A stretch of 64,000 nt of DNA from Streptomyces sp. NBS 14/10 (lineage in GTDB: Bacteria > Actinomycetota > Actinomycetes > Streptomycetales > Streptomycetaceae). Below are positions 6,146-64,000 of the stretch, in pieces. The position numbers and the translations under genes were made by a program. The notes beneath the pieces were generated by a model. That model saw nothing but the letters and a program-made list of their open reading frames with translations, ran no database searches and had not been told where the DNA came from. The first letter of the stretch is position 1. Each line of letters begins with the position of its first letter. The stretch spans positions 310,001 through 374,000 of the forward strand of contig NZ_NCSM01000018.1 of the NCBI RefSeq assembly GCF_002224125.1, given 5' to 3'.

Positions 6146-7514
6146 CGTCGGCCTCCTTTCCGTCACTGACAGTGTCGGGCCCGCCACTGACAATCAGCTC
6201 GCGGTCGTGTCGCGGGCGTCGGCGCGGTGCGGGCGGCAGGGTCTGGCCGGGCAGCGGTGGCACCGGGAAGCCGCCCGCCATCGGGTCGAAGGCGGGCTCC
6301 GGGCCGCCCTCGGCCTCCGCCTCGGCCCGCGCTTCCCCATCGCGGCCCTCCCTGTCGCGGAAGATGTCGACGACGAACGACAGCAGCAACAGGACGAGGA
6401 CCGCGCCGCCGACGTACAGCACGATGTCCTGGTAGTCGTAGTTCTCGTTGCGCAGCGCCCGCACGGTCGCGACCAGCATCAGCCAGACCATCGAGACCGG
6501 GATGAGGACCTTCCAGCCCAGCTTCATGAACTGGTCGTAGCGCACTCGCGGCAGCGTGCCGCGGATCCAGACGAAGGCGAACAGCAGCGACAGGACCTTG
6601 CCGACGAACCAGAGCATCGGCCACCAGCCGTGGTTGGCCCCCGCCCAGAAGGTGCTGATCGGCCATGGCGCCCGCCAGCCGCCCAGGAAGAGGGTGACCG
6701 CGACCATCGAGACGGTGACCATGTTGATGTACTCGGCGAGCATGAACATCGCGAACTTGATGGACGAGTACTCGGTGTTGAAGCCGCCGACCAGGTCGCC
6801 CTCGGACTCCGGCATGTCGAAGGGCGCGCGGTTGGTCTCACCGACCATCGCGATGATGTAGATGATGAAGGAGACCGGCAACAGCAGCGCGTACCAGCGG
6901 TCGTGCTGGGAGTTGACGATCTCGGAGGTCGACATCGACCCGGAGTAGAGGAAGACCGCCGCGAAGGACATGCCCATCGCGATCTCGTAGCTGATCATCT
7001 GGGCGCAGGAGCGCAAACCGCCGAGGAGCGGATACGTGGAACCGGACGACCAGCCCGCCAGCACGATGCCGTAGATGCCCACCGAGGCGGTGGCCAGGAT
7101 GTAGAGGATCGCGATCGGCAGGTCGGTCAGCTGCATCGTGGTGCGGTGCCCGAAGATCGAGATCTCGTTGTCGGCCGGGCCGAAGGGGATGACCGCGACC
7201 GCCATGAAGGCGGGGATGGCCGCGACGACCGGCGCCAGGACGTAGACGACCTTGTCCGCGCCCTTGACGACGATGTCTTCCTTCAGCATCAGCTTCACGC
7301 CGTCGGCCAAGGACTGCAGCATGCCCCAGGGGCCGTGCCGGTTCGGGCCGATGCGCAGCTGCATCCAGCCGACGACCTTGCGCTCCATGACGATGGAGAT
7401 CAGCACGGTCACCATCAGGAAGGCGAAGCAGAAAACCGCCTTGATCAGGATCAGCCACCAGGGGTCGCGCCCGAACATCGACAGGTCTTCTGCGGCGAGG
7501 TAGCTCAGGTTCAT
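6138..7514 (-). CDS. nuoH: NADH-quinone oxidoreductase subunit H
   Basis: Membrane subunit at the quinone-binding junction of complex I (458 aa). Conserved blocks include [20 protein letters not shown] and the [15 protein letters not shown] loop, here [20 protein letters not shown]. Eight helices are apparent. A ~70-residue hydrophilic C-terminal tail rich in Pro/Glu/Arg extends beyond the usual length. ATG at 7514 overlaps the nuoG stop (ATGA); the end overlaps the nuoI start. Confidence 0.96.
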
Positions 7515-10006
7515 GAGGTCACCTCCGGTTCGGTCGCAAGAGCGCCGATCTTGACCAGTTCACCGGGGCGCGCGCCCAGGTCGTGGTACGCGCCGCCGCC
7601 CGTCGAGTTCAGCGGCAGCCAGACCACCCGGTCGGGCATCGCCGTCACCGCCAGGGGCAGCTGGAGCGACCCGGCGGGGCCGGTGACCCGTACGGTCTCC
7701 CCGTCGCGCACCCCCGCCTCCTCCGCGGTCGCCTCCGACAGCCGGATGACCGCCGCGTGGCGGGTCGCGGCGAGCGCCGCGTCGCCCTCCTGGAGCCGGC
7801 CCTGGTCCAGCAGCAGCCGGTGGCCCGCGAGCAGCGCCTCGCCCTCGCCGGGGCGGGGCAGCGGACCGCCGGTCTCCATCGGCCCGATGCCGTGGGAGCC
7901 GGGCCAGGTGCCGAGCCGCGTCAGCTCGTCCCGTACGGCCTGGACGTCCGGCAGGTCGAACGGCACATCCATGGCGTCGGCCAGCATGTGCAGCACCCGG
8001 GCGTCCGGAAGGACATGGCGGCGGGTCATCTGGTCGGGCTTGATGGCCGCCTCGAACGGCCGGGCCCGCCCCTCCCAGTTGAGGAAGGTGCCCGCCTTCT
8101 CGACGACCGCCGCGACCGGCAGCACCACATCCGCGTGCGCCGTGACCTCGGTGGGCCGCTGCTCCAGGCTGACCAGGAAGCCGACCGCCTCCAGGGCCTC
8201 GGCGGCCCGCGCCGGGTCGGGCAGATCGGCGATCTCGACACCCGCGACCACCAGCGCACCGAGCTCGCCCTCGGCCGCGGCCTCGACGATCCGGCCGGTG
8301 TCCCGGCCCGCCCGGCCGGGCAGTTCGGCGACGCGCCAGACCTCGGCGGTCTCCTCGCGGGCCCGCGGATCGGCGACCGGGCGCCCGCCGGGCAGCAGAC
8401 CGGGGAGCGCGCCCGCCTCGATGGCGCCCCGCTCCCCCGCCCGGCGCGGAATCCAGACCAGCGTGGCGCCGGTGGCGGCGGCGGCCCGTACGGCGGCGGT
8501 CAGCGCGCCCGGTACGGTCGCAAGCCGCTCACCAGCGACGATCACCGCGCCGTCGAGGCGCAGCGCCTCGGCCGCCCGCTCCCCGTCGGCGTCAAGGCCG
8601 GTGCGGCCCGCGAGCGCGTCCAGCCACTCGGTCTCGGTGCCGGGGGCCGCGGGCAGCAGCGTGCCGCCCGCCTTCGTCAGGCCCCGGGTCGCGTGGGTGG
8701 CCAGTGAGAAGGTGCGCTGGCCGTGCTTGCGGTGGGCCTTGCGCAGCCGCAGGAAGACGCCGGGCGCCTCCTCCTCCGATTCGAAGCCGACCAGGAGGAC
8801 GGCCGGGGCCTTCTCCAGCGCGGCGTACGTCAGGCCGCCGCCGTCCAGGTCGCGGCCCCGGCCCGCCACCTGGGTGGCCAGGAAGTCGGCCTCCTCGGCG
8901 CTGTGCGCCCGGGCCCGGAAGTCGATGTCGTTGGTGTCCAGGGCGACGCGGGCGAACTTCGCGTACGCGTACGCGTCCTCGACGGTGAGCCGGCCGCCGG
9001 TCAGCACGCCCGCGCGGCCGCGGGCCGCGGCCAGGCCGGTGGCCGCCGCCTCCAGCGCCTCGGGCCAGCTCGCCGGCTCCAGTTCGCCCGTCTCCCGGTC
9101 GCGCACCAGCGGGGTGGTGAGCCGGTCGGGGAGCTGCGCGTAGCGGAAGCCGAAGCGCCCCTTGTCGCAGATCCACTCCTCGTTGACCTCGGGGTCGTCC
9201 GCCGCGAGCCGCCGCATGACCTTGCCGCGCCGGTGGTCGGTGCGGGTCGCGCAGCCGCTCGAGCAGTGCTCGCACACACTCGGCGAGGAGACCAGGTCGA
9301 AGGGGCGGGAGCGGAAGCGGTAGGCGGCCGACGTCAGCGCGCCCACCGGGCAGATCTGGATGGTGTTGCCGGAGAAGTACGACTCGAACGGGTCGCCCTC
9401 GCCCGTGCCCACCTGCTGCAGGGCGCCGCGCTCCAGCAGCTCGATCATCGGGTCGCCCGCGACCTGGTTGGAGAACCGGGTGCAGCGCGCGCACAGCACA
9501 CACCGCTCGCGATCCAGCAGCACCTGCGGCGAGATCGGCACCGGCTTGGCGAAGGTGCGCTTATGGCCCTCGAAGCGGCTGTCGGCCTGCCCGGCGGACA
9601 TGGCCTGGTTCTGCAGCGGGCACTCGCCGCCCTTGTCGCAGACCGGGCAGTCCAGCGGGTGGTTGATCAGCAGCAGCTCCATCACACCGCGCTGCGCCTT
9701 CTCGGCCACGGGCGAGGTGAGCTGGGTCTTGACCACCATCCCGTCGGTGCAGGTGATCGTGCAGGAGGCCATCGGCTTGCGCTGACCCTCGACCTCGACG
9801 ATGCACTGGCGACAGGCGCCGGCCGGGTCGAGGAGCGGATGGTCGCAGAAGCGGGGGATCTCGATACCGAGCAGCTCGGCAGCGCGGATCACCAAGGTCC
9901 CCTTGGGGACGGAGATCTCGATTCCGTCGATGGTGACAGAGACCAGATCTTCGCGTGGCACCGCCGCCTCTCCGCCTCCGGAGGGTGCATTGGTGGTCAC
10001 GGTCAT
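7511..10006 (-). CDS. nuoG: NADH-quinone oxidoreductase subunit G
   Basis: Large iron-sulphur subunit of the complex I peripheral arm (831 aa). The N-terminus has a plant-type [2Fe-2S] domain ([11 protein letters not shown], then CTITC), followed by [27 protein letters not shown] and the molybdopterin-type [15 protein letters not shown] cluster region. The rest is a degenerate molybdopterin oxidoreductase domain that carries no cofactor in this family. ATG at 10006 overlaps the nuoF stop; the upstream frame extension is nuoF shadow. Confidence 0.96.
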
Positions 10007-54007: not shown

Positions 54008-54442
54008 ATGGGGGTGACGTACAAGTACTTCGGCGCGCCCGACGGCGCGACCGCGGCCCGGGTCCCCATCTCCATGCGCCCCGAGGAGCTCGGCGGCGAC
54101 GAGCTCGGCCATGGCATGTTCACCAAGATCAAGCCGGAGACGGTGGCCGCGATGGTCCTCACCGGCATCGAAGGCGTCCCCCTCCACAAGGTGCCCCCGC
54201 TCGAACTCGTCGTCCTCCACCCCGACTACGCCGTCGTCAAGCTCCCCATGACCGCCGTCGACCCGCTCCGCGGCGTCGGCGAGGAGGCCGTCGGCGCCGC
54301 CGCCTTCATCTGGTCCACCGTCCCCGACCGCGGCGGCCCCCGCGACGCCTTCACGGTCTACCGGCTGCTGCACGAATGGCAGGACTTCAGCCATCGGCTG
54401 CATGAGGCGGGGCATCAGCCGTACTGCTTGGTGTGGCCCTGA
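54008..54442 (+). CDS. Conserved hypothetical protein
   Basis: 144 aa from ATG 54008 with a GGGAG site. Soluble, with the string VTYKYFGAPDGATAARVPISMRPEELGGDELGHGMF and a C-terminal HEWQDFSHRLHEAGHQPYCLVW. I do not recognise a domain. It is divergent from hemL and its last 28 bp overlap the end of the convergent MFS gene. Confidence 0.7.
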   Translation: MGVTYKYFGAPDGATAARVPISMRPEELGGDELGHGMFTKIKPETVAAMVLTGIEGVPLHKVPPLELVVLHPDYAVVKLPMTAVDPLRGVGEEAVGAAAFIWSTVPDRGGPRDAFTVYRLLHEWQDFSHRLHEAGHQPYCLVWP

Positions 54443-55680
54443 CCTTGCCCGGCCTCGTCCGGAACCGCCGCGGCCGGCGTGGGTTCCTCCGGCAGTCTCC
54501 GCAACAGGACGCCGTACCCGATCCCCGTCAAGGTCCCCACGACCGCGCACAACCCCCACAGCCACTCCGGGCCGAAGTGGTCGATGACGGTGCCGGACAT
54601 GAGCGGGGCGATCAGGGCGGCGGCCGACCACGCCAGGGTGTTCATGCCTTGGTAGCGTCCACGCCCCTGAGCGGGTGAGAGCCGGACGAGGAGCACGCTC
54701 TGCGTCGGCGTGGAGCCGATCTCGGCGAGCGTCCACACGCAGACGGTGAGCGCGAAGACGCCGACCGACCCGGCGAAGGCGGTGAGTCCGAAACCGTACC
54801 CCGCGAGGAGCGAGCAGACGATCATCAATGCGCGCGGATCGCGGTGCTCGATGAAGCGCGTGACCGGGATCTGCAGGACAACGATCAGGACGCCGTTGAC
54901 GGCGATGACCAGGCCGTAGTCGGCGGGCGTGAACCCGGCGCGGCCCATGGCGACCGGGAGTCCGACGTTGCCCTGCAGGAAGAGAACGGCGATGACGAAG
55001 GACAGTCCGACAGCGGCCATGTACCGCCCGTCCCGCAGCACGGTCCCGAGGCTGACTCCGCCCTCTGTCTGTTCGGCCTTGGGCATGGGCCGGGACTCGG
55101 GCACCTTGAGGAGGACGACGACCGCGCACGCCAGCGTCATCCCCGCCTCGATGAGGAACCCGGCGAGATAGCTGGACTCGGCGATGAACCCAGCGGCCAT
55201 TGAGGCGAAGGCGAAGCCGAGGTTGACGGCCCAGAAGTGCAGCGAGAAAGCCCGCACCCGGTCCTGGGGCCTGACGATGTCGGCGATCATCGCCTGCATG
55301 GCGGGCCGGGAGGCGTTGGAGGCCATGCCGACGAGGAAGGCGACGGCGGCGATGGCCACGGGGCCGCGCATGAAGCCGAGCAGCGCGATGGAGCCGGCGG
55401 TGGCGGACTGGGCGATGAGAAGGGTGGGCCGCCTGCCGAGCCGGTCGGCCATCACCCCACTCCCCAGCGCGGACACGACTCCGCCGAGCCCGTGCAGGGA
55501 GACGACGAGACCGGCGTACGAAGCCGAATACCCGCGGTCGAGCGTGAGGTAGAGGGCCATGAACGTGGCGACGAAGGCGCCGAGCCGGTTCACGAGGGTG
55601 CTGGTCCACAGCCACCAGAACTCCCGGGGCAGACCGGAGACGGTTTCCCGGGCGACGCGTCTCAGGGCGGCGAGTGGCAT
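54415..55680 (-). CDS. MFS transporter, probable drug/product exporter
   Basis: 421 aa, 12 hydrophobic helices from ATG 55680 (GGGGGA site). The loop 2-3 signature GSGVMADRLGRRPTLL is typical of MFS proteins. It follows the carbamoyltransferase gene by 78 bp on the same strand, so it is the likely export or self-resistance gene and the left border of the biosynthetic cluster. Substrate unknown. Confidence 0.82.
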   Translation of the reverse strand: MPLAALRRVARETVSGLPREFWWLWTSTLVNRLGAFVATFMALYLTLDRGYSASYAGLVVSLHGLGGVVSALGSGVMADRLGRRPTLLIAQSATAGSIALLGFMRGPVAIAAVAFLVGMASNASRPAMQAMIADIVRPQDRVRAFSLHFWAVNLGFAFASMAAGFIAESSYLAGFLIEAGMTLACAVVVLLKVPESRPMPKAEQTEGGVSLGTVLRDGRYMAAVGLSFVIAVLFLQGNVGLPVAMGRAGFTPADYGLVIAVNGVLIVVLQIPVTRFIEHRDPRALMIVCSLLAGYGFGLTAFAGSVGVFALTVCVWTLAEIGSTPTQSVLLVRLSPAQGRGRYQGMNTLAWSAAALIAPLMSGTVIDHFGPEWLWGLCAVVGTLTGIGYGVLLRRLPEEPTPAAAVPDEAGQGQGHTKQYG

Positions 55681-55758
55681 GAGTCCCCCAGGATCAGGCG
55701 GGTACGTAAGCGGCTCAAGCGGTGAGTGCAACGCGCCCGGACGTTACTTGATGTGACG

Positions 55759-56715
55759 CTAGGTCAGGCACCAATCGAGTACGGCCATCGCACTGGCCAG
55801 CTTCATCTGCGCCTGGTCCCAGGCCAGCGACCGGGGCCCGTCGAGCACTCCACTCGTGACTTCCTCGCCCCGGCGGGCCGGCAAGTCGTGCATGAAGAAG
55901 GCATCCGGCCACCGCGCCATCAGACGCTCGTCGACGGCGAACGGCGTGAATGCCGTCCGCCAGTCCGGATCACTCTTGCTGGTCCCGGTGGTCTGCCATT
56001 GAGTCGTGTAGACGACGTCCACGTCGCCGTCGATATCGTCGACCCGGTGCACCTCGACGACCTTGCTGCCCCACTCCTTCGCCGTCTGCTGGGCTCGAAC
56101 GAGGACCGCGGGGTCGAGCCCGTACCCGGCGGGCGTCGCCAGGGTCAGGGCGGCTCCGGGGACCAGTGCCAGGCCGTGCGCAAGGGCCGCGGCCGTGTTG
56201 TTCCCCTCGCCGAAATAGACGAGATGGAGCCCCCGCAGCGAACCGAAGCGATGGGAGAGGAGGGCGATGTCCGTGAGACCCTGGGTCGGGTGTTCTTCGC
56301 GCACCATCGCGTTGATGACGGGTATCGAGGCTGCGTCGGCGAGCTCGCGCAGATCACCCTCACCGACAGAACTCCGCACGACCAGGGCGTCGAGCATTCC
56401 CCCCAGGATGCGGCCGGTGTCCGACAGCGACTCACCCGTGGCGAGTTGCAGGTCGTTCGGCCCGTAGGCAATGACGGTACCGCCGAGCCGTATCGCACCG
56501 CTGGTGAAAGCCGTCCGGGTACGCGTCGAGGTGTGGCTGAACAGCGTGCCCACCACAAGATCCTGCAGAGGGCGCTCCTGGGGGCGTCTGTTCTCGTACC
56601 AGGCGCAGGAGCGACGGACGAGCGTCTGCAACTCCTCAGGTGTCAGGTCGTGCAGGGAGATGAGGCTGCGCGCAGGGCGCAGCCCGTCAGCCCGAGCGGC
56701 AGTGTGGTCAGTCAT
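55759..56715 (-). CDS. Atypical ornithine-carbamoyltransferase-family enzyme
   Basis: 318 aa from ATG 56715 (GGAGGCGA site). The carbamoyl-phosphate motif STRTR (63-67) and HPTQ (142-145) are intact, so the carbamoyl donor site is preserved. The amino-acid side differs from true OTC: the SMG loop is replaced by QWQTTGTS (239-246) and HCLP by HDLP (276-279). It therefore probably carbamoylates another amine. Viomycin- and zwittermicin-type pathways use such homologues to form ureido groups. Next to an SbnA homologue, diaminopropionate or a derivative is the obvious candidate. Confidence 0.82.
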   Translation of the reverse strand: MTDHTAARADGLRPARSLISLHDLTPEELQTLVRRSCAWYENRRPQERPLQDLVVGTLFSHTSTRTRTAFTSGAIRLGGTVIAYGPNDLQLATGESLSDTGRILGGMLDALVVRSSVGEGDLRELADAASIPVINAMVREEHPTQGLTDIALLSHRFGSLRGLHLVYFGEGNNTAAALAHGLALVPGAALTLATPAGYGLDPAVLVRAQQTAKEWGSKVVEVHRVDDIDGDVDVVYTTQWQTTGTSKSDPDWRTAFTPFAVDERLMARWPDAFFMHDLPARRGEEVTSGVLDGPRSLAWDQAQMKLASAMAVLDWCLT

Positions 56716-56797
56716 CGCTTCGCCTCCGCTTTCTTCGATGTCCGGCTCCGGCCGAGAACTCCGTGTCGGCCACCATGCCGCCGCCACGTCGGGGCGG

Positions 56798-57793
56798 TCA
56801 TGAACCCGCCTCCGCGCCGACCAGGGGCTCGCCGTCTTCGGCCGATGTCCCGGCGAGCAGGCCCTCGGACGTTGCCACGCCGTAGACCAGGTCGATGTAC
56901 CGGTCTCCTCGGTCGGGGAAGAGGGTGACGACGGAGGATTCGGGGCCTAGGGAGGGGATTATTTTCCGGATGGCTGCGATGACCGATCCGGAGGACCCGC
57001 CGGCGAAAATCGCCTCTTTGGACAACAAGTCATGGCAGGCCTCGATCGATTCCTCGTCCGTCACCTCGACGACACGGTCGACCAGGCTCTCGTCGAGCAG
57101 CTCAGGCACCCGGCTCGAGCCGATCCCGGGAAGTCGGCGCGGTCCGGGAGGATTGCCGAACACCACCGATCCGACGGCATCCACGGCGATCACCTGGAGC
57201 CCGACGTAGCATTCCTTCAGCCGGCGTGCCAGGCCGTTCAACGTGCCGGTTGTGCTCACCGCGACCACCAGACAGTCAGGGTCGCCCGGCAGGTCCTCGG
57301 CTATTTCCTCCGCGGTGCTCCGGTAATGCGCTTCAGGCCCCAGGGAGTTGGCGTACTGGTTGATCCAGACTGCCGCGGGATCGGCGGCCAGTATGTCTTT
57401 CACCCGCGCGATACGCGCGGGCAGATAGCTTCCTCCGGCTGCCGCACCATCGACCATCTCAACTTGCGCACCGTAGCTTTTCAAAATCGCGTGGTTGCTG
57501 GATGTGATGTGCGGATCGACCACGAGAGTGAGCCGCAGGCCGTGGATCCGGGACATCATGGCCAGTGCGACACCGAAATTTCCGGAAGTACTCTCGACGA
57601 TATGCGCCCCGGGATGAAACAGGCCGTCACGCATGCCGGTCTCGATGATGTGCCGCGCGGTACGGTCCTTGACACTTCCCGCAGGATTGAGCATTTCGAG
57701 TTTGGCGAATACCTGCGGTCCCGTCGGGAAGAGGCGTCTCAAGTGGACCATCGGGGTGCTGCCGATACAGTCCACAATAGAGTCATGCAGCAA
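56798..57793 (-). CDS. SbnA-type 2,3-diaminopropionate synthase component (PLP)
   Basis: 331 aa, cysteine-synthase fold. Staphylococcal SbnA joins O-phospho-serine and glutamate into a precursor that SbnB oxidises to L-2,3-diaminopropionate. The sequence follows SbnA rather than CysK: PMVHLRRLFP, NPAGSVKDRTARHIIE (PLP Lys42), ESTSGNFGVALAMM, WINQYANSL, PGIGSSRVPELL, FAGGSSGSVIAAI and LFPDRGDRYIDLVY. Initiation is TTG 57793 after GAGGGGGA; no in-frame ATG lies nearby. No SbnB partner is in the window. Codon third positions look less G/C-biased than in neighbouring housekeeping genes. Confidence 0.88.
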   Translation of the reverse strand: MLHDSIVDCIGSTPMVHLRRLFPTGPQVFAKLEMLNPAGSVKDRTARHIIETGMRDGLFHPGAHIVESTSGNFGVALAMMSRIHGLRLTLVVDPHITSSNHAILKSYGAQVEMVDGAAAGGSYLPARIARVKDILAADPAAVWINQYANSLGPEAHYRSTAEEIAEDLPGDPDCLVVAVSTTGTLNGLARRLKECYVGLQVIAVDAVGSVVFGNPPGPRRLPGIGSSRVPELLDESLVDRVVEVTDEESIEACHDLLSKEAIFAGGSSGSVIAAIRKIIPSLGPESSVVTLFPDRGDRYIDLVYGVATSEGLLAGTSAEDGEPLVGAEAGS

Positions 57794-57870
57794 GAATCCC
57801 CCTCAGCTAATTCCTTGCCCGTCCGATTTTTCGGCGGTTTCCCACTCACCCCGAACCCATTCACCCCGAG

Positions 57871-59091
57871 TCAGGCGTACTTGACCTCCACCTGGGAAAG
57901 GTATGCCTCTGCGACGGCCAGTGAGGCATTGAATTCATCGGCCCAGGAGATGGCATGGCCGAGGCGGTCGCCGTTGTCGACCACTCCGTTGTTCTGCATG
58001 GGTCCCGAGGTGAAGGTGGCGCGGAGGATTCCGGCAGGCAGTTCGGGCGGGGGCGTCACGGACGTGATCAGTCCGGTGCGCCGGGGCGTCAGATAGAGGC
58101 TTGTCGCATAGCCGCCGCGGACGTCGCCGACCGGTTCGCCGGGGGGAAGGCCCAGATACAGACGCGTATACAAGTCGACGACATCATCCCCGATGGTGAC
58201 CCGCATCAGCTCACGGATCTGGTCGCCGCCCAGCCTCGGATTGATCTCGATCAGTGCCGGCACGCCATCGACGATCTTGAACTCGACATGGGCGGCTCCC
58301 CGGCGGTGTCCCACCGCGGCGAGCCAGTCGACGACCACCCGCACGATGCGAGCGTCCTCCTCGGCCGTCCCGAAATGGTAGGGAAACATGGCCCCGAGCT
58401 CGACCCGGAAGGGGAGCTCGGCCATCAACTTCTTGGTGAATCCGAGAAACCGCCAGCCGTCGGTGCGGTCGTCCCATATCAGCTCGGCCGTGAATTCCGG
58501 TCCGTCGATGAACTCTTCCACCAGGGCGTACTGTGCGCGGCGGTAGCCGCGGGCGTTGACCTGGTGGGCGGCGATGGTACGCAGAGCCGCGCGGTACTCG
58601 TCGTCGGACGAACAGACCCGGACCCCGGCGCTGCCGGCGTCGTCCACAGGTTTCACCACACACGGGTACTCGAGTGGGGAGATATCGCCCGGCTCGTCCA
58701 GCGACACCCGTACGGCCGCCACGGAGCGCCCAATGCCCTTCGTCAAGCTGCGGGAACGGTCCTTGAAGTGGCAGTTCAGCAAGCCGTCCACCGGGGCGTG
58801 CGGCAGGCCGAGCCGCTCCGCGAGCACGGCTGTCTGCACCAGCCGGTAGTCGTCGAACGCGATCACGGCGTCCGGCGCGTGGTCGGTGAAGAAATGCATG
58901 AGCTTCACCAGGTCATGGGTGTCCACCACGCTGTAGGCATCGGCAATGCTGACCGGATTCGGAGAGAACTTCGCATACTCCGACGGATCGCGGGCGACGA
59001 AATGAGTTCGATAACCCTTTTCCTTGGTGAGCCGCATGCCTTCGGGGCCGTAGTCCAACATGTTGCTCTCGATAAAAAAGGCGGTCTTCAC
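57871..59091 (-). CDS. ATP-grasp amino acid/peptide ligase
   Basis: 406 aa, GTG 59091. ATP-grasp features: YPCVVKPVDDAGSAGVRVC (ATP Lys and glycine loop), ALVEEFIDGPEFTAELIW, and metal-ligand ALIEINPRLGGDQIREL. The layout resembles stand-alone L-amino acid ligases (BacD/DdaF type) that form amide bonds through acyl phosphates. It lies between the P450 and the SbnA gene, so it may ligate diaminopropionate or its carbamoyl derivative. The substrate pair cannot be read from sequence. Confidence 0.85.
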   Translation of the reverse strand: MKTAFFIESNMLDYGPEGMRLTKEKGYRTHFVARDPSEYAKFSPNPVSIADAYSVVDTHDLVKLMHFFTDHAPDAVIAFDDYRLVQTAVLAERLGLPHAPVDGLLNCHFKDRSRSLTKGIGRSVAAVRVSLDEPGDISPLEYPCVVKPVDDAGSAGVRVCSSDDEYRAALRTIAAHQVNARGYRRAQYALVEEFIDGPEFTAELIWDDRTDGWRFLGFTKKLMAELPFRVELGAMFPYHFGTAEEDARIVRVVVDWLAAVGHRRGAAHVEFKIVDGVPALIEINPRLGGDQIRELMRVTIGDDVVDLYTRLYLGLPPGEPVGDVRGGYATSLYLTPRRTGLITSVTPPPELPAGILRATFTSGPMQNNGVVDNGDRLGHAISWADEFNASLAVAEAYLSQVEVKYA

Positions 59092-59270
59092 CTGGAGTCC
59101 CCAATTTCGGATACTTCGCGTTCGAAAATCAGATGACTTGCTTACTGGAGCTCAGACGCGGGCGACACCCACGGGGTATTCGTGAGGCTCCGACAGTAAC
59201 ACTTCAAGTCCGTTTGCGGTATAGGCTCGGAATTTGTCGCCGCCGGGTATGGCGGGCGATTATGGCTCAT
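59092..59270 (-). promoter_or_regulatory. 179-bp gap inside the cluster, possible internal promoter
   Basis: The widest gap among the left-transcribed cluster genes and relatively A+T-rich. No hairpin strong enough for a terminator was seen. An internal promoter for the ATP-grasp-SbnA-carbamoyltransferase part is possible. Confidence 0.3.
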
Positions 59271-60458
59271 TCATCGGGGGACGAGGCGCACGGCGGCGTG
59301 CGCCGGTCCGTTCACCGCGATCGACCGCAATGGCTGCGCCTCTCCGGCCGGTTCGATGACGGCGACCAGCTCCGCAAGTGTCTCCAGGAGCATCCGCATC
59401 TGATGGCGGGCCATGGTGCTCCCGATACAGACGTGCTCTCCCGTGCCCAGGGCCAGATGGCGGTTGGGCTGCCGGCCGAGGTCGAACCGCTCGGGTTCCG
59501 GGAACACCGACTCGTCCCGGTTGGCCGAGGGGATCCACAGCACAACCCGGTCCCCGGCGGCGATGCGCCGGCCGTGGACGACCGTGTCCGCCGTGGCCGT
59601 CCGCATGCTGTGCGTGGCGCTGCTCGTCCACCGCAGCACCTCCTCCGCCGCGGTCCTGACGAGTTCGCCGTCCCGCTCCCGTACGAGCCGCTGCCACGCC
59701 TGCGGATGTGCGGCGAGGGCGAGGATCCCCGAGGCCATCGACAGACCCGCGTTCTCCGCGGCTCCGACCAGGTTCTCGCAGCTCAGCAAGATCTCGGTCT
59801 CCGTCAACAGCTCGCCCTGCACCTCGTTGTCGACCAACATGCCCATCGCGTCGTCCGCGGGCTTCTCCATCCGCGCGTACATCATGTCGATGAAACAGCG
59901 CATCAGCTCCAGGTGGCTGGTGAGGGGTTTGCCGGACTCGAACGCCTCCGTGGTCCAGGTCAGCAGCCGCTCGCGGTCCTCCGGCGCCACACCGAGCAGC
60001 CTGCCGATGTTGTGGCTGGAGAGCCGGGCTCCGATGTCGTGGACCACATCGCAGCTGCCCGACTCGACAGCGCGCGTCACCACCGAGCGGATCTCGGCGC
60101 GCATCTCGCCCGCCAGGGAACGGGCGCACCGTTCGCTGAACCGGTCGGCCACCTGCCCGCGCAGGGCACGGTGCCTGGGCGGATCGGTCAGGGCCATGGT
60201 CAGACCGCTGCCGGGGTCCTCCCCCAGATCCATCGGCCGCAGCAGGACGCCCTGCGCCGAGCTGAAGACGGCCGGGTTCTGGTACACCTCCCGTATGTCG
60301 TCGTACCGGGTGAGCGACCAGAAGCCCGGCAAATCCCCCGGTTCGTGCCAGTGGACCGGGGCGTGCTGTCTCATCCAGCGCCACAGCCGGTGCACCTCGC
60401 CGGAGGCGTGCAGCTCCGGGTCGACGACGTCGGCAGGGGTGAAGGTGATGTCGGTCAT
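59271..60458 (-). CDS. Cytochrome P450 with non-canonical I-helix
   Basis: 395 aa. Haem-binding LALGTGEHVCIGSTMAR with ligand Cys344, and ExxR in AEEVLRW (Glu273/Arg276), are intact. In the I-helix, VGAAENAGLS (231-240) replaces the usual AGxET; the proton-relay Thr is Asn236 and the next position Ala237. ATG 60458 overlaps the NRPS stop (ATGA), so it is probably made together with the NRPS and may act on its carrier-bound amino acid or on the finished product. Confidence 0.9.
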   Translation of the reverse strand: MTDITFTPADVVDPELHASGEVHRLWRWMRQHAPVHWHEPGDLPGFWSLTRYDDIREVYQNPAVFSSAQGVLLRPMDLGEDPGSGLTMALTDPPRHRALRGQVADRFSERCARSLAGEMRAEIRSVVTRAVESGSCDVVHDIGARLSSHNIGRLLGVAPEDRERLLTWTTEAFESGKPLTSHLELMRCFIDMMYARMEKPADDAMGMLVDNEVQGELLTETEILLSCENLVGAAENAGLSMASGILALAAHPQAWQRLVRERDGELVRTAAEEVLRWTSSATHSMRTATADTVVHGRRIAAGDRVVLWIPSANRDESVFPEPERFDLGRQPNRHLALGTGEHVCIGSTMARHQMRMLLETLAELVAVIEPAGEAQPLRSIAVNGPAHAAVRLVPR

Positions 60459-63400
60459 GACGCAGCTCCCGCGGCGATCAGGGCAAGACGGTCATGGAAA
60501 CCCTCGAGCAGCTTCAGCGCGGTGGCCTCGGCGACGGCGTCACGCCGGAACGAGAGCACCACGTCGAGCGCGCCGGCGCCGTTTTCGTCCGGCCACACCT
60601 CGAGGTGCAGCTCCAGGGGAAGGGCGGCGTACGGCTGGCGCAGATACGCGGCGACGACACCGGGCAGATCGAGCCGGGGCGGAGCGTTGTCCTGGAGGGC
60701 GAAAAGGGACTGGAACACCGGGGGCCGGCCGGGCGTCGTCGTCCCCACTCCCTGCGCTCCCTGCGCGACGGCCGTGAAGGGGACATCGCTACGGCTGAAG
60801 GCCCGGTGGACCAGTCTGCCGGTCTCCCGGATACCGTCCTCGCCACCGCCCACCGCGGCGCCGCGCAGGCGGACCGGCACCATGTTGATCAGGCAGCCGA
60901 TGGCCGGCTCCAGCTCCGGTACGGTGCGATCGGCGACGGGCACGCCCACCGCGAAGTCCCGCTGCCCGCATGCCTCGGCCATGATGTCCGCCCAGGCCGA
61001 CAGGAGCACCACGAACCGGCTCACGCCGAGTGCGGCGCCCCGTGCGTCGAGGCGCGCCGTCACGGCCGCGGGAACGGACACGTCCAGGTGTCCCGTCCCG
61101 GTCGCCCCGGGGCCGAGGCCGGGGCCGGGCCCTTCGGGCCAGCGGACCTCGGGTACGTCCCGGAACTCCTCCCGGACCCGCTCCGTCCGCCCCGCCAAGT
61201 CCGTCACGGCGATCGCCGCCGTCGTCAGCCGGGCCCGCTCGGCCAGCGTGGGCGGGGCGGTTCGCGGCTCACGTCCGGCATAGGCGTCGGACAGGTCGCG
61301 CGCCAGGACGGACTCCGACCGGCCGTCGAAGCCGATGTGGTGGACCACCAGCCCGAACAGCCAGCCCCGCGTCCCGGTCACCGGCACCAGCGCGGTGCGC
61401 CACAGGTCGGCGTCCTGGGGTTCCAAGGGCTCCGCGAAGAGCCGCCGCAGCGCGCCGACCGCCTCGTCGACGGTCGGCCGGGCGTCCAGCAGCTCCAGGG
61501 GCGGGGCACAGATGTCGGTGACCTCGGCATGAGGCCGGGGATCCACCCGGAAGGCCGTGCGCAGCACCTGGTGCCGCTCGTGGACGGCGGCGACGGCCGC
61601 CTCCAGGGCATCCTGGTCGAGCCGGCCGTGCAGCTGCCACGTCATCAGGCAGTATCCGGACCGGTCTTGCGGCGCCGTCAGATGGCGGGTGAGGAACACC
61701 AGCTCCATGGGGGTCAGCGGGATGTCACCGGTCGGCGGCGGTACGGCGTCCATGCCCCGCGCCGACCGCAGCCACGATCCGAGGCGTTCGGCCGACGCGT
61801 GCTCGTACAGGATCGACAGCGGAACCGGCCGCCCCGCCCGCTTGCCGATCCGGGTGCAGGCACGGGCGGCCTGCAGCGAGGAGCCTCCCAGCTCGAAGAA
61901 GGACGTGTCCGGTGGCACCGCCCGGCTGCCCAGCACGGCCGCGAACGCCTCGGCCACCAGGCGGACGAGCGTGTCGCCGATGGGGCCGTGGTGGCTCTCG
62001 ACGGGCGCCTTGGGCACGCTCGCCAGCAGGGCCCGGTCGTCCAGCTTGCCGCTGCCGGTCAGCGGGAAGGAGTCGACGAAGGCGACGTCGACGGGGCGCT
62101 GGTAGGCGGGCAGGTGGCGGGCGAGGATCGCCGGTGTGTCCGGCGGCGCGCCGCCACCGGTCCGGTCCGGCACGCAGAAAGCCACCAGTTCGAAGGCGCC
62201 GCCGAGTTCATTCCACCGGGGGACCACCCGGCAGTCGGCGACGTACGGGACCAGGCGCTCGATCTGCCGCTCCACCTCGGCCGGTTCGACGCGGTTGCCC
62301 CGGATCTTCACCTGCCGGTCGATCCGCCCGTGGAACTCGACGGTCCCGTTCTCGTCCCGGGCGCCCAGGTCCCCGGTGCGGTACAGCCGGACCCGCTCGC
62401 CGTCGATGTCGACTTCCCGGAACTTCTCGGCGGTCAGGGCCGGTTCACCGAGGTAGCCGTGGGCCAGGCCGTCGCCCGCGACGCAGATCTCCCCCGGCTC
62501 CCCGGCCGCGCAGCGGCGGCTGCCCTGGAGGACGAAAACGGAGGTGCCGGGCACCGGCCGCCCCAGCGGGATGCCACCGGAGCGGGCGCAGTCCGCGGCG
62601 GTGACGCGGTGCGTGGTGGTGAACACCGTGCTCTCGACCGGGCCATAGCCGTTGATCAGGGCCGTGTCGGGGAACCGGTCGAGGAAGCGGCCGACGTGCC
62701 GCACGGACAGGCGTTCCCCGCCGATCATGACCTGGGACAGGCCGCTCAGCGCCGTCAGGTCCTCATCGACCATCAGGTTGAACAGGCTGCTGGTCAGCCA
62801 CACCGTGTTCACCCCGTGGTCGGAGACCATCGCGCGCAGGGCCTCGGCCGTCAGGAACGGCTCGCCGGTCAGGACGCAGGTGCCGCCGTGGTACAGCGCG
62901 GCCCAGAGTTCGAGGGAGAAGGCGTCCCACGGCAGCGCCGCCGCGAGGGGAATGACCGTATCCCGGTCGAAACGCGCGAAGGTACCTGCCCGGAAGAGCC
63001 GTGCCGTCGCCCGGTGCGGGGTGATCACTCCTTTGGGCCGTCCGGTGGTGCCCGAGGTGAAGAACACACAGCACGCGTCGGAGCCCCGTACCGCCACCGC
63101 GGCGCGGGCGGGGCCCTCCCCCGTACCGTCCTCGGCCGGTGTCCACAGCGGCGCGGGCAGCTCCGCCACCGCACCCGGCCGGGCGACGACGAGCGGCGGC
63201 CGGAGCTGTTCGACCACCGCGTCCAGACGGGTCTGCGGCCAGTCGGGATCGAGCAGCGCGTATGCGGCGCCGAGTTTGAGAACGGCCAGCAGCGTGGCGA
63301 CCAGGTCGACGGAGCGGGGCAGCAGGATCGGTACGAGATGACCCTGCTCAACACCGGCGGCGGACAGCCGGCCGGCTATCCGCTCGGCGCGGGCATCCAG

Positions 63401-63547
63401 TTCACCGTACGAAACCCGGACGTCCCGGGCGATCAGGGCTGTGTGCCGCGGCTGAGCGCGCGCCTGTGCGGCGAAGACGTCATGCAGTCCTTCTCCTGGT
63501 GATTCCCCAGCGACTTCTGCAGCCCACGCGGCATTCGACCGCAACAC
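60455..63547 (-). CDS. Nonribosomal peptide synthetase, A-T-C
   Basis: 1030 aa, GTG 63547 with AAGGGAG site. Adenylation domain ~20-510: FFTSGTTGRPKGV (161-173), NGYGPVESTVFTT, YRTGDLG, GRIDRQVKIRGNRVEPAEVE and PLTGSGKLD. The WDAF segment keeps the Asp that binds an alpha-amino group, so an amino acid substrate is expected. Carrier domain FFELGGSSLQAAR (Ser557). Condensation domain ~610-1020: HQVLRTAF and intact HHIGFDG (736-742). No thioesterase, epimerase or N-terminal C domain, so it acts as an initiating unit or in trans. I do not assign the substrate. Confidence 0.92.
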   Translation of the reverse strand: MLRSNAAWAAEVAGESPGEGLHDVFAAQARAQPRHTALIARDVRVSYGELDARAERIAGRLSAAGVEQGHLVPILLPRSVDLVATLLAVLKLGAAYALLDPDWPQTRLDAVVEQLRPPLVVARPGAVAELPAPLWTPAEDGTGEGPARAAVAVRGSDACCVFFTSGTTGRPKGVITPHRATARLFRAGTFARFDRDTVIPLAAALPWDAFSLELWAALYHGGTCVLTGEPFLTAEALRAMVSDHGVNTVWLTSSLFNLMVDEDLTALSGLSQVMIGGERLSVRHVGRFLDRFPDTALINGYGPVESTVFTTTHRVTAADCARSGGIPLGRPVPGTSVFVLQGSRRCAAGEPGEICVAGDGLAHGYLGEPALTAEKFREVDIDGERVRLYRTGDLGARDENGTVEFHGRIDRQVKIRGNRVEPAEVERQIERLVPYVADCRVVPRWNELGGAFELVAFCVPDRTGGGAPPDTPAILARHLPAYQRPVDVAFVDSFPLTGSGKLDDRALLASVPKAPVESHHGPIGDTLVRLVAEAFAAVLGSRAVPPDTSFFELGGSSLQAARACTRIGKRAGRPVPLSILYEHASAERLGSWLRSARGMDAVPPPTGDIPLTPMELVFLTRHLTAPQDRSGYCLMTWQLHGRLDQDALEAAVAAVHERHQVLRTAFRVDPRPHAEVTDICAPPLELLDARPTVDEAVGALRRLFAEPLEPQDADLWRTALVPVTGTRGWLFGLVVHHIGFDGRSESVLARDLSDAYAGREPRTAPPTLAERARLTTAAIAVTDLAGRTERVREEFRDVPEVRWPEGPGPGLGPGATGTGHLDVSVPAAVTARLDARGAALGVSRFVVLLSAWADIMAEACGQRDFAVGVPVADRTVPELEPAIGCLINMVPVRLRGAAVGGGEDGIRETGRLVHRAFSRSDVPFTAVAQGAQGVGTTTPGRPPVFQSLFALQDNAPPRLDLPGVVAAYLRQPYAALPLELHLEVWPDENGAGALDVVLSFRRDAVAEATALKLLEGFHDRLALIAAGAAS

Positions 63548-63884
63548 GTCGACTCCCTTCGCGATCCCGGACGACGAGGGTTTGCGAGCACACCATCAGG
63601 CGCGTACGACGGTGCCATGTCTGATCGTTTCCTGCCAGCCTCAATTTCTTTTCATAAAAGGGGTTGAGCCTGACTTCGTCATGAATGTGACCGCCGCCGA
63701 TCTCTCGTTCCGGGACGGCGAACTGTGCCATGATCGCAGGGGGTCCGAGAAACCCGACCCCGGCTACTGTCGACGACCGTTTTCATTTCACGCGACATCA
63801 GCGCGAGATCAGCGCTGCATCAGCGCGGCACCAGCGCTGCATCAGACGGGATATCCGTTTCCAACCGCATGATGGGGGACCTTG
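63548..63884. promoter_or_regulatory. Divergent NRPS / PKS promoter region
   Basis: 337 bp separating the two core genes. It is A+T-richer near 63620-63700. The PKS-proximal half holds a five-unit direct-repeat array. A TATCCG sequence (63853-63858) just after the last repeat could be the -10 box of the PKS promoter. No small gene was seen. Confidence 0.6.
63797..63848 (+). repeat. Five direct repeats with exact 11-bp period (SARP-like operator)
   Basis: ATCAGCGC starts at 63797, 63808 and 63819, ACCAGCGC at 63830 and ATCAGACG at 63841. Heptamers separated by 4 bp, one helical turn apart, just upstream of a promoter is the known binding geometry of Streptomyces antibiotic regulatory proteins. 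The regulator gene itself is not in the window. Confidence 0.7.
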
Positions 63885-64000
63885 TGACGAGTCGGGATCG
63901 CTCCTTGGACATCGCGGTCATCGGTATGGCAGCGCGGCTACCCGGGCCCCGTGGAATCGACGACTGGTGGGATTCCCAGCTCCGCGGGAACGTGCACAGC
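63885..64000 (+). CDS. Polyketide synthase, start of ketosynthase domain (runs off window)
   Basis: Only ~38 codons are visible: after a short leader (TSRDRSL) comes DIAVIGMAARLPGPRGIDDWW, the unmistakable N-terminal strand of a modular beta-ketoacyl synthase. GTG 63885 is preferred because GGGGGA lies 4 bp upstream; in-frame ATGs at 63870 and 63873 are alternatives without a site. Transcribed away from the NRPS. Further domains are beyond the right edge. Confidence 0.88.

Follow-up and report, generated by a model that had tools for sequence, protein, structure and literature searches.

Enzymes of the SbnA family join O-phosphoserine and glutamate en route to 2,3-diaminopropionate (Dap), and in the staphyloferrin B pathway SbnA is paired with SbnB. 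Next to SbnA homologues, the viomycin, capreomycin and zwittermicin A producers encode carbamoyltransferases that a review, in its available text, names DPTCases and recognizes by the motifs (T/S)RWQTTG and HDLP (PMC4581275). Here we analyzed a 64,000-nucleotide stretch of Streptomyces sp. NBS 14/10, hereafter the window (positions 310001-374000 of contig C38, NZ_NCSM01000018.1, in a 12.1 Mb genome of 127 contigs), at whose right end such enzymes are encoded beside hemL. The initial annotation, made from the letters of the window, listed six left-transcribed genes for a non-ribosomal peptide synthetase (NRPS) of the A-T-C type, a P450, an ATP-grasp ligase, an SbnA homologue, an atypical carbamoyltransferase and an MFS exporter. 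Pfam and TIGRFAM profile matches place all six, with these domains, where it had put them. The divergent polyketide synthase (PKS) gene, of which it saw only the beginning, proved to be a complete KS-AT-ACP gene once the contig was read rightward. One locus thus holds KS-AT-ACP, A-T and A-T-C modules, and the proposed hybrid NRPS-PKS cluster, nine genes over 15.4 kb at 364415-379775 of C38, is borne out.

The best explanation of these data, to which we give a probability of about 0.6, is a nine-gene hybrid NRPS-PKS cluster in which Dap would be ligated to another amino acid before it is carbamoylated. Every expected domain is present and most active-site motifs are intact. The product would probably be an unassigned small molecule made of a carbamoylated amino acid, a valine-like residue and a two-carbon unit.

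The window carbamoyltransferase keeps the carbamoyl-phosphate motifs STRTR (SxRTR) and HPTQ (HPxQ), and reads TQWQTTG and HDLP where ornithine enzymes have DxxxSMG and HCLP. Models of ornithine carbamoyltransferase (OTC) score it below cut-off (TIGR00658, 234 vs 281 bits), in line with the earlier label of atypical. The ordinary OTC of the same genome carries DVWVSMG and HCLP and adjoins a gene that by eye is arginine deiminase-like. We dropped a canonical OTC role in arginine metabolism on account of the altered motifs, the sub-cut-off scores and the normal OTC elsewhere in the genome. Compared through the motifs in the available text of the review, the DPTCases of viomycin, capreomycin and zwittermicin A have STRTR, HPTQ, HDLP, WQTTG and an SbnA neighbor in common with the window enzyme, which differs from them in Gln for the loop Arg and Arg for the His after HDLPA. 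Since the loop reads TQWQTTG rather than (T/S)RWQTTG, we filed the enzyme as DPTCase-like and not as a member of the DPTCases. Models described in the same text propose that the loop Arg anchors the substrate carboxylate and that the HDLP Asp binds the alpha-amine (PMC4581275).

This substitution marks a particular group of enzymes. Four relatives of the window enzyme are encoded with the same cassette of genes, as described below, and in 34 aligned rows the positions 137, 174, 263 and 305 (numbered in the 342-aa open reading frame (ORF); minus 24 in the 318-aa protein) set the five cassette enzymes apart from 90% or more of the other rows. Position 263 is Q in 5/5 cassette enzymes and R in 29/29 others, and position 305 is R in the cassette enzymes and H in 28/29 others. 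HDLP is present in the window enzyme and in 30 of 31 other rows. All of 27 further rows, 22 of them new, have R at 263 and H at 305, which brings the distinct non-cassette relatives with R to 51; the rows were drawn from the best-scoring relatives of the genus and order scans. A tree of these 34 rows with the genome's ordinary OTC added, 35 different rows in total, unites all five cassette enzymes in a single clade (100/100), so the change from R to Q counts as one evolutionary event. More broadly, the window enzyme falls in a clade of enzymes with DPTCase motifs.

Relatives of the carbamoyltransferase occur in 60/295 genomes of the genus at E <= 1e-60 (own genome included) and in 72/391 genomes of the order, in 4/10 genera, at 1e-80. 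Among 20-kb neighborhoods fetched around 20 of the 29 located places outside the own genome (L120-L139), 15 contain SbnA, 10 an SbnB-like match and 10 NRPS matches, and at 1e-4 the window's ATP-grasp ligase finds no match in any of the 20. The initial annotation had likened the enzyme to those that carbamoylate Dap beside SbnA homologues. That link stands insofar as the enzyme groups with those bearing the viomycin and zwittermicin DPTCase motifs and SbnA is near 15/20 relatives; since the proposed carboxylate anchor is Gln here, the acceptor may be other than free Dap. In a different genus within this family, a DPTCase-type gene (L189, G625:C49:102001-122000) lies with SbnB, SbnA, NRPS, a remote ATP-grasp and MFS genes and, by eye, an ORF resembling aspartate decarboxylase, a parts list similar to that of the window cluster. 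At another locus (L184, G493:C2), the window hemL has a tblastn match within about 1.5 kb of a DPTCase relative, which may reflect any class III aminotransferase or chance.

The AlphaFold model of the ATP-grasp ligase has a pLDDT of 90.4 and a pTM of 0.90. Among the 50 Foldseek matches listed, the top query TM-scores belong to the L-amino acid ligases 3vot (0.82), BacD (0.79) and YwfE (0.79), and the best E-value to the phosphoribosylglycinamide synthetase 4dim (TM 0.70). Residues K147, E192, E270, E282, N284 and R286 are invariant across 11 aligned sequences. The model thus predicts an L-amino-acid-ligase-like fold with ATP-grasp catalytic residues, as in BL00235 (3vot) and BacD/YwfE, but the identity to these ligases is only 21 and 16%. 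The LAL_C2 match reaches 24.7 bits against a Pfam cut-off of 29.4.

As the initial annotation had claimed, the window encodes an SbnA homologue: its TIGR03945 score exceeds the family cut-off, and it matches Staphylococcus aureus SbnA (5d84) with an E-value of 3.5e-101. The lysine segment for pyridoxal phosphate (PLP) and the Tyr differing between 5d84 and 5d86 are both conserved with the staphyloferrin B enzyme. Unlike in the staphyloferrin B pathway, the SbnB homologue, which the annotation had expected to support its reading, has been deleted from the cluster and left only a scar. In S. colonosanans (L015), SbnA and the carbamoyltransferase are separated by an OCD/mu-crystallin gene (PF02423, 101 bits; TIGR03944, 214.7 bits against a cut-off of 326.9); the SbnB proteins of the cassette relatives are divergent, at 207-216 bits against this family cut-off. 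Aligned with L015, the window junction consists, in order, of 264 nt at 90%, 36 nt at 30/36 and 103 nt at 91% identity, and the L015 stretches 7408-8484 and 8521-8741 are missing, that is, two deletions. The S. milbemycinicus locus (L014) gives a gapless alignment to the window here, 94% identical over these 401 nt. Given this common scar, the deletion would most simply be older than the split between the window lineage and S. milbemycinicus. Elsewhere in the own genome, contig C82 encodes an SbnB above the cut-off (419 bits) and contig C62 one below it (298 bits), whose 319-aa product is by eye about 40 internal residues short of the C82 copy; the S. milbemycinicus genome has two SbnB genes above the cut-off. 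An SbnB acting in trans presumably feeds the pathway, probably the C82 copy. These two copies belong to two other SbnA/SbnB sets of the own genome, on C62 (L111, L115) and C82 (L110, L116).

Constraint since this loss was estimated from Nei-Gojobori-type counts between the window and L014, with bootstrap 95% intervals. The ratio of nonsynonymous to synonymous change (w) is 0.195 for SbnA, 0.397 for the ATP-grasp ligase, 0.420 for the P450 (its interval extends to 0.97), 0.407 for the A-T-C gene, 0.236 for the PKS and 0.377 for the A-T gene. The pooled values are 0.329 (0.22-0.49) for the cassette (ATP-grasp, SbnA and carbamoyltransferase), 0.356 (0.29-0.43) for eight cluster genes and 0.195 (0.12-0.30) for three flanking genes. 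Because codon changes are constrained, the pathway looks still alive despite the loss of SbnB, which holds only if the deletion predates the split.

When 84,980 species, each represented by one genome, were scanned with the ATP-grasp protein, 66 loci emerged, of which four match at full length with 78-95% identity: S. milbemycinicus L014, S. colonosanans L015, Streptomyces sp. MUM 203J L016 and S. fulvoviolaceus L017. The best segments at the other 62 loci reach at most 39%. At E <= 1e-70, the own genome was the only hit among 392 genomes of the genus and among 100 relatives, a set that partly overlaps the former. In the plasmid collection, 323 records hold ATP-grasp relatives, every one below 60% identity, and the viral contigs scanned hold no relatives of the carbamoyltransferase.

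The S. milbemycinicus locus has eight of the nine genes, together with hemL and its two neighbors, in the same order at 93-99% protein identity (96-99% DNA identity over the window genes); its A-T gene is truncated at the locus end, and the ninth gene, for the thioesterase, would fall beyond the fetched locus. Such conservation makes a chance grouping unlikely. With the PKS complete and the cluster conserved in relatives, we dropped the reading that these genes are unrelated leftovers. S. colonosanans has orthologues of all nine genes at 80-95%, split between contig C84 (PKS 82%, A-T 80%, A-T-C 80%, P450 87%, thioesterase 81%) and a second contig (MFS, ATP-grasp, SbnA and carbamoyltransferase, 89-95%). 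There the P450 gene is followed by a serine deaminase-like gene, judged from its first residues, and MFS stands ahead of ATP-grasp. The gene order thus indicates rearrangement, and, as contig ends intervene, the two parts may or may not touch. MUM 203J (L016 and L159, NZ_JADWYO010000004.1) and S. fulvoviolaceus (L017 and L160, NZ_JOEY01000086.1) carry a second type of cluster. As in the window, it contains ATP-grasp, SbnA and a TQWQTTG carbamoyltransferase, 77-84% identical to the window proteins, and its SbnB-like protein is 79-83% identical to that of S. colonosanans; on the contig that holds the ATP-grasp/SbnA pair, the SbnB-like and carbamoyltransferase genes are some 15-25 kb away from that pair. 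Unlike the window, L160 of S. fulvoviolaceus has an NRPS of A-T-C-A-T-TE order with a Cys-like second A code and a prolyl oligopeptidase, and MUM 203J has an aldolase, an aminotransferase and extra ATP-grasps. Clusters of the second type also encode HAD proteins, an FAD enzyme and a saccharopine-dehydrogenase-like protein, and the aldolase is of class II. The same four-gene cassette therefore seems to serve two cluster types with different assembly lines. We tentatively extend this to a portable cassette of ATP-grasp, SbnA, SbnB-like and TQWQTTG carbamoyltransferase genes, whose enzymes might ligate Dap and then carbamoylate the amide, yielding a ureido-dipeptide for two assembly lines, with a borrowed SbnB in the window lineage; we regard this wider proposal as rather doubtful.

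These observations enable us to propose a putative pathway, in which all substrates and the order of the reactions are predicted from sequence. Initially, SbnA would condense O-phosphoserine with glutamate, as its family assignment indicates, and a trans-acting SbnB, probably the C82 copy, would free Dap. The ATP-grasp ligase, given the fold of its model, may then couple Dap to a second amino acid. Afterwards, the carbamoyltransferase would modify the beta-amine of Dap to give a ureidoalanine unit. Its acceptor is read as a Dap amide rather than free Dap because the proposed carboxylate-anchoring Arg is lost; this is the weakest step. One substitution event, taken with the published model-based role of the Arg, suggests that the ligase precedes the carbamoyltransferase. 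Judging from the domains, the A-T-C protein would load valine or a similar residue on its A domain (A1), the A domain of the A-T protein (A2) an unusual residue, maybe the ureido unit, and the C domain would link them. KS-AT-ACP would contribute one unreduced two-carbon unit, the P450 would oxidize an intermediate, either free or bound to a carrier, the thioesterase would edit or release, and the MFS protein would export.

Several points weigh against this explanation. That the loop Arg anchors the carboxylate has been proposed on the basis of models, and a later review, in its available text, gives the loop motifs of DPTCases and DBTCases swapped (PMC6022934). As a single event within one clade, R to Q may reflect drift, or a change that was compensated, an Arg being gained at 305. 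The L189 carbamoyltransferase keeps R although its Dap cluster includes a remote ATP-grasp (29% over 170 aa), so a strict rule that ATP-grasp goes with Gln was dropped. The substrates read from the A-domain codes are tentative, and the w intervals of the carbamoyltransferase (0.585, 0.24-1.60) and MFS (0.630, 0.33-1.18; w 0.464 under a different alignment) include 1. The enzyme might be an ordinary DPTCase that carbamoylates free Dap, the HDLP segment having taken over the carboxylate-binding Arg from the 240s loop, and the ligase would act on free ureidoalanine. An Arg is indeed lost at 263 and another gained at 305, both adjoining substrate motifs, and the remaining motif set is that of DPTCases. 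This reading requires an as yet hypothetical compensating geometry, and residue 305, which is F in the own OTC and R in L107 despite R263, may not be a substrate residue; we consider it possible though on balance unlikely. A self-resistance OTC is very improbable: argK does protect the phaseolotoxin producer, as the available text of one report states (PMC3466206), but here both ornithine motifs are altered, a normal OTC exists elsewhere, and the enzyme groups with SbnA-linked enzymes.

The missing SbnB admits two other readings. Two deletions at the SbnB site and a pooled w of 0.36, against 0.195 in the three flanking genes, would fit a decaying cluster whose product is no longer made. We find this improbable, given nine open reading frames, a pooled w far below 1 (upper bound 0.43) and active-site motifs that are mostly retained. 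Alternatively, the loss would be functional: the cluster would make no Dap and instead build on what SbnA produces, N-(1-amino-1-carboxyl-2-ethyl)glutamate, or on a compound derived from it. Both sister clusters have lost SbnB by deletion, and SbnA remains constrained (w 0.195). Three relatives whose carbamoyltransferases share the residues of the window enzyme have nevertheless kept the SbnB-like gene, an above-cut-off SbnB is available in trans, and SbnA without a nearby SbnB is common, no SbnB match at 1e-12 being seen within about 10 kb in 6/15 SbnA-bearing neighborhoods of carbamoyltransferase relatives. A functional loss is accordingly a slight prospect.

NRPS or NRPS-PKS clusters with a DPTCase are already a known kind; as far as we have seen, the novelty lies in the cassette, in the changed substrate motif and in the loss of SbnB. 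A literature search of titles and abstract starts, with most subscription journals outside its coverage, recognized nothing describing the cluster. The locus offers a compact, tractable nine-gene cluster for a probably ureido-containing NRPS-PKS product. It is also a test case for the evolution of acceptor choice in carbamoyltransferases, with one clade, two substitutions by substrate motifs and many relatives with the usual residues. A precursor gene that is lost while constraint seemingly persists would imply that clusters within one genome engage in cross-talk.

The features are listed in Table 1. Genes to the right of the window were called to the contig end by a simple script based on third-position GC, and their starts are approximate. 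The likely starts of the carbamoyltransferase and MFS genes differ slightly from the longest ORFs: the former is the ATG after GGAGGCGAAGCG, preceded by GGAGG, in an ORF that reaches 56787, and the latter is also the start of the relatives' ORFs.

Table 1. Features of the cluster, in window coordinates
Feature	Position	Strand	Evidence and remarks
MFS exporter	54415..55680	-	PF07690 160 bits, 8e-47; likely ATG 55680, longest ORF to 55731
Carbamoyltransferase, DPTCase-like	55759..56715	-	OTCace_N/OTCace (PF02729/PF00185) 121/112 bits; TQWQTTG and HDLPARRG motifs
SbnB-like gene remnant, 36-nt scar	56748..56783	-	30/36 positions match L015 8485-8520 (blastn)
SbnA homologue, PLP enzyme	56798..57793	-	TIGR03945 390.2 bits, cut-off 349.95
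ATP-grasp ligase, L-amino-acid-ligase type (predicted)	57871..59091	-	PF13535 (ATP-grasp_4) 73 bits
Cytochrome P450	59271..60458	-	PF00067 73.5 bits, 2e-20; 4-nt overlap with NRPS gene end
NRPS A-T-C	60455..63547	-	AMP-binding 234, PP-binding 37.5, Condensation 103 bits
PKS gene KS-AT-ACP, 1002 aa	63869..66877	+	only first 132 nt (63869-64000) inside window
A-T NRPS gene, 662 aa	67053-69041		right of window, past PKS gene
Thioesterase, 245 aa	69038-69775		GHSMG motif; right of window
TetR gene	ORF 69938-71026, likely start 70436		beyond thioesterase, outside window

The PKS sequence contains TACSSSL, EAHGTGT, KASIGH, GHSSG and GGDSL, and no reductive domain is among the Pfam matches of the protein. 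The C-domain motif of the A-T-C protein is intact (HHIGFDG). The pocket letters, read by motif, are DALWMGGVFK for A1 and DSALIAEVWK for A2, and both are unchanged in S. milbemycinicus and S. colonosanans. The A1 pocket resembles valine codes; to our knowledge, no code matches A2, which was absent from the A domains at the carbamoyltransferase loci examined, S. milbemycinicus excepted. Three NRPS clusters, L136, L137 and L139, encode a DPTCase relative without any SbnA match in the surrounding 10 kb or so; their A domains show recurring codes (DLPKVAEVGK in L136 and L139, DLPKIAEVGK in L137), presumably close to the Asn code; these domains could select ureidoalanine. The heme segment of the P450 is LALGTGEHVCIG, with Leu at the usual Phe position, and hence does not match the standard heme regular expression. 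To the right of the TetR gene lie apparently unrelated histidine kinase, AbgT and AsnC genes.

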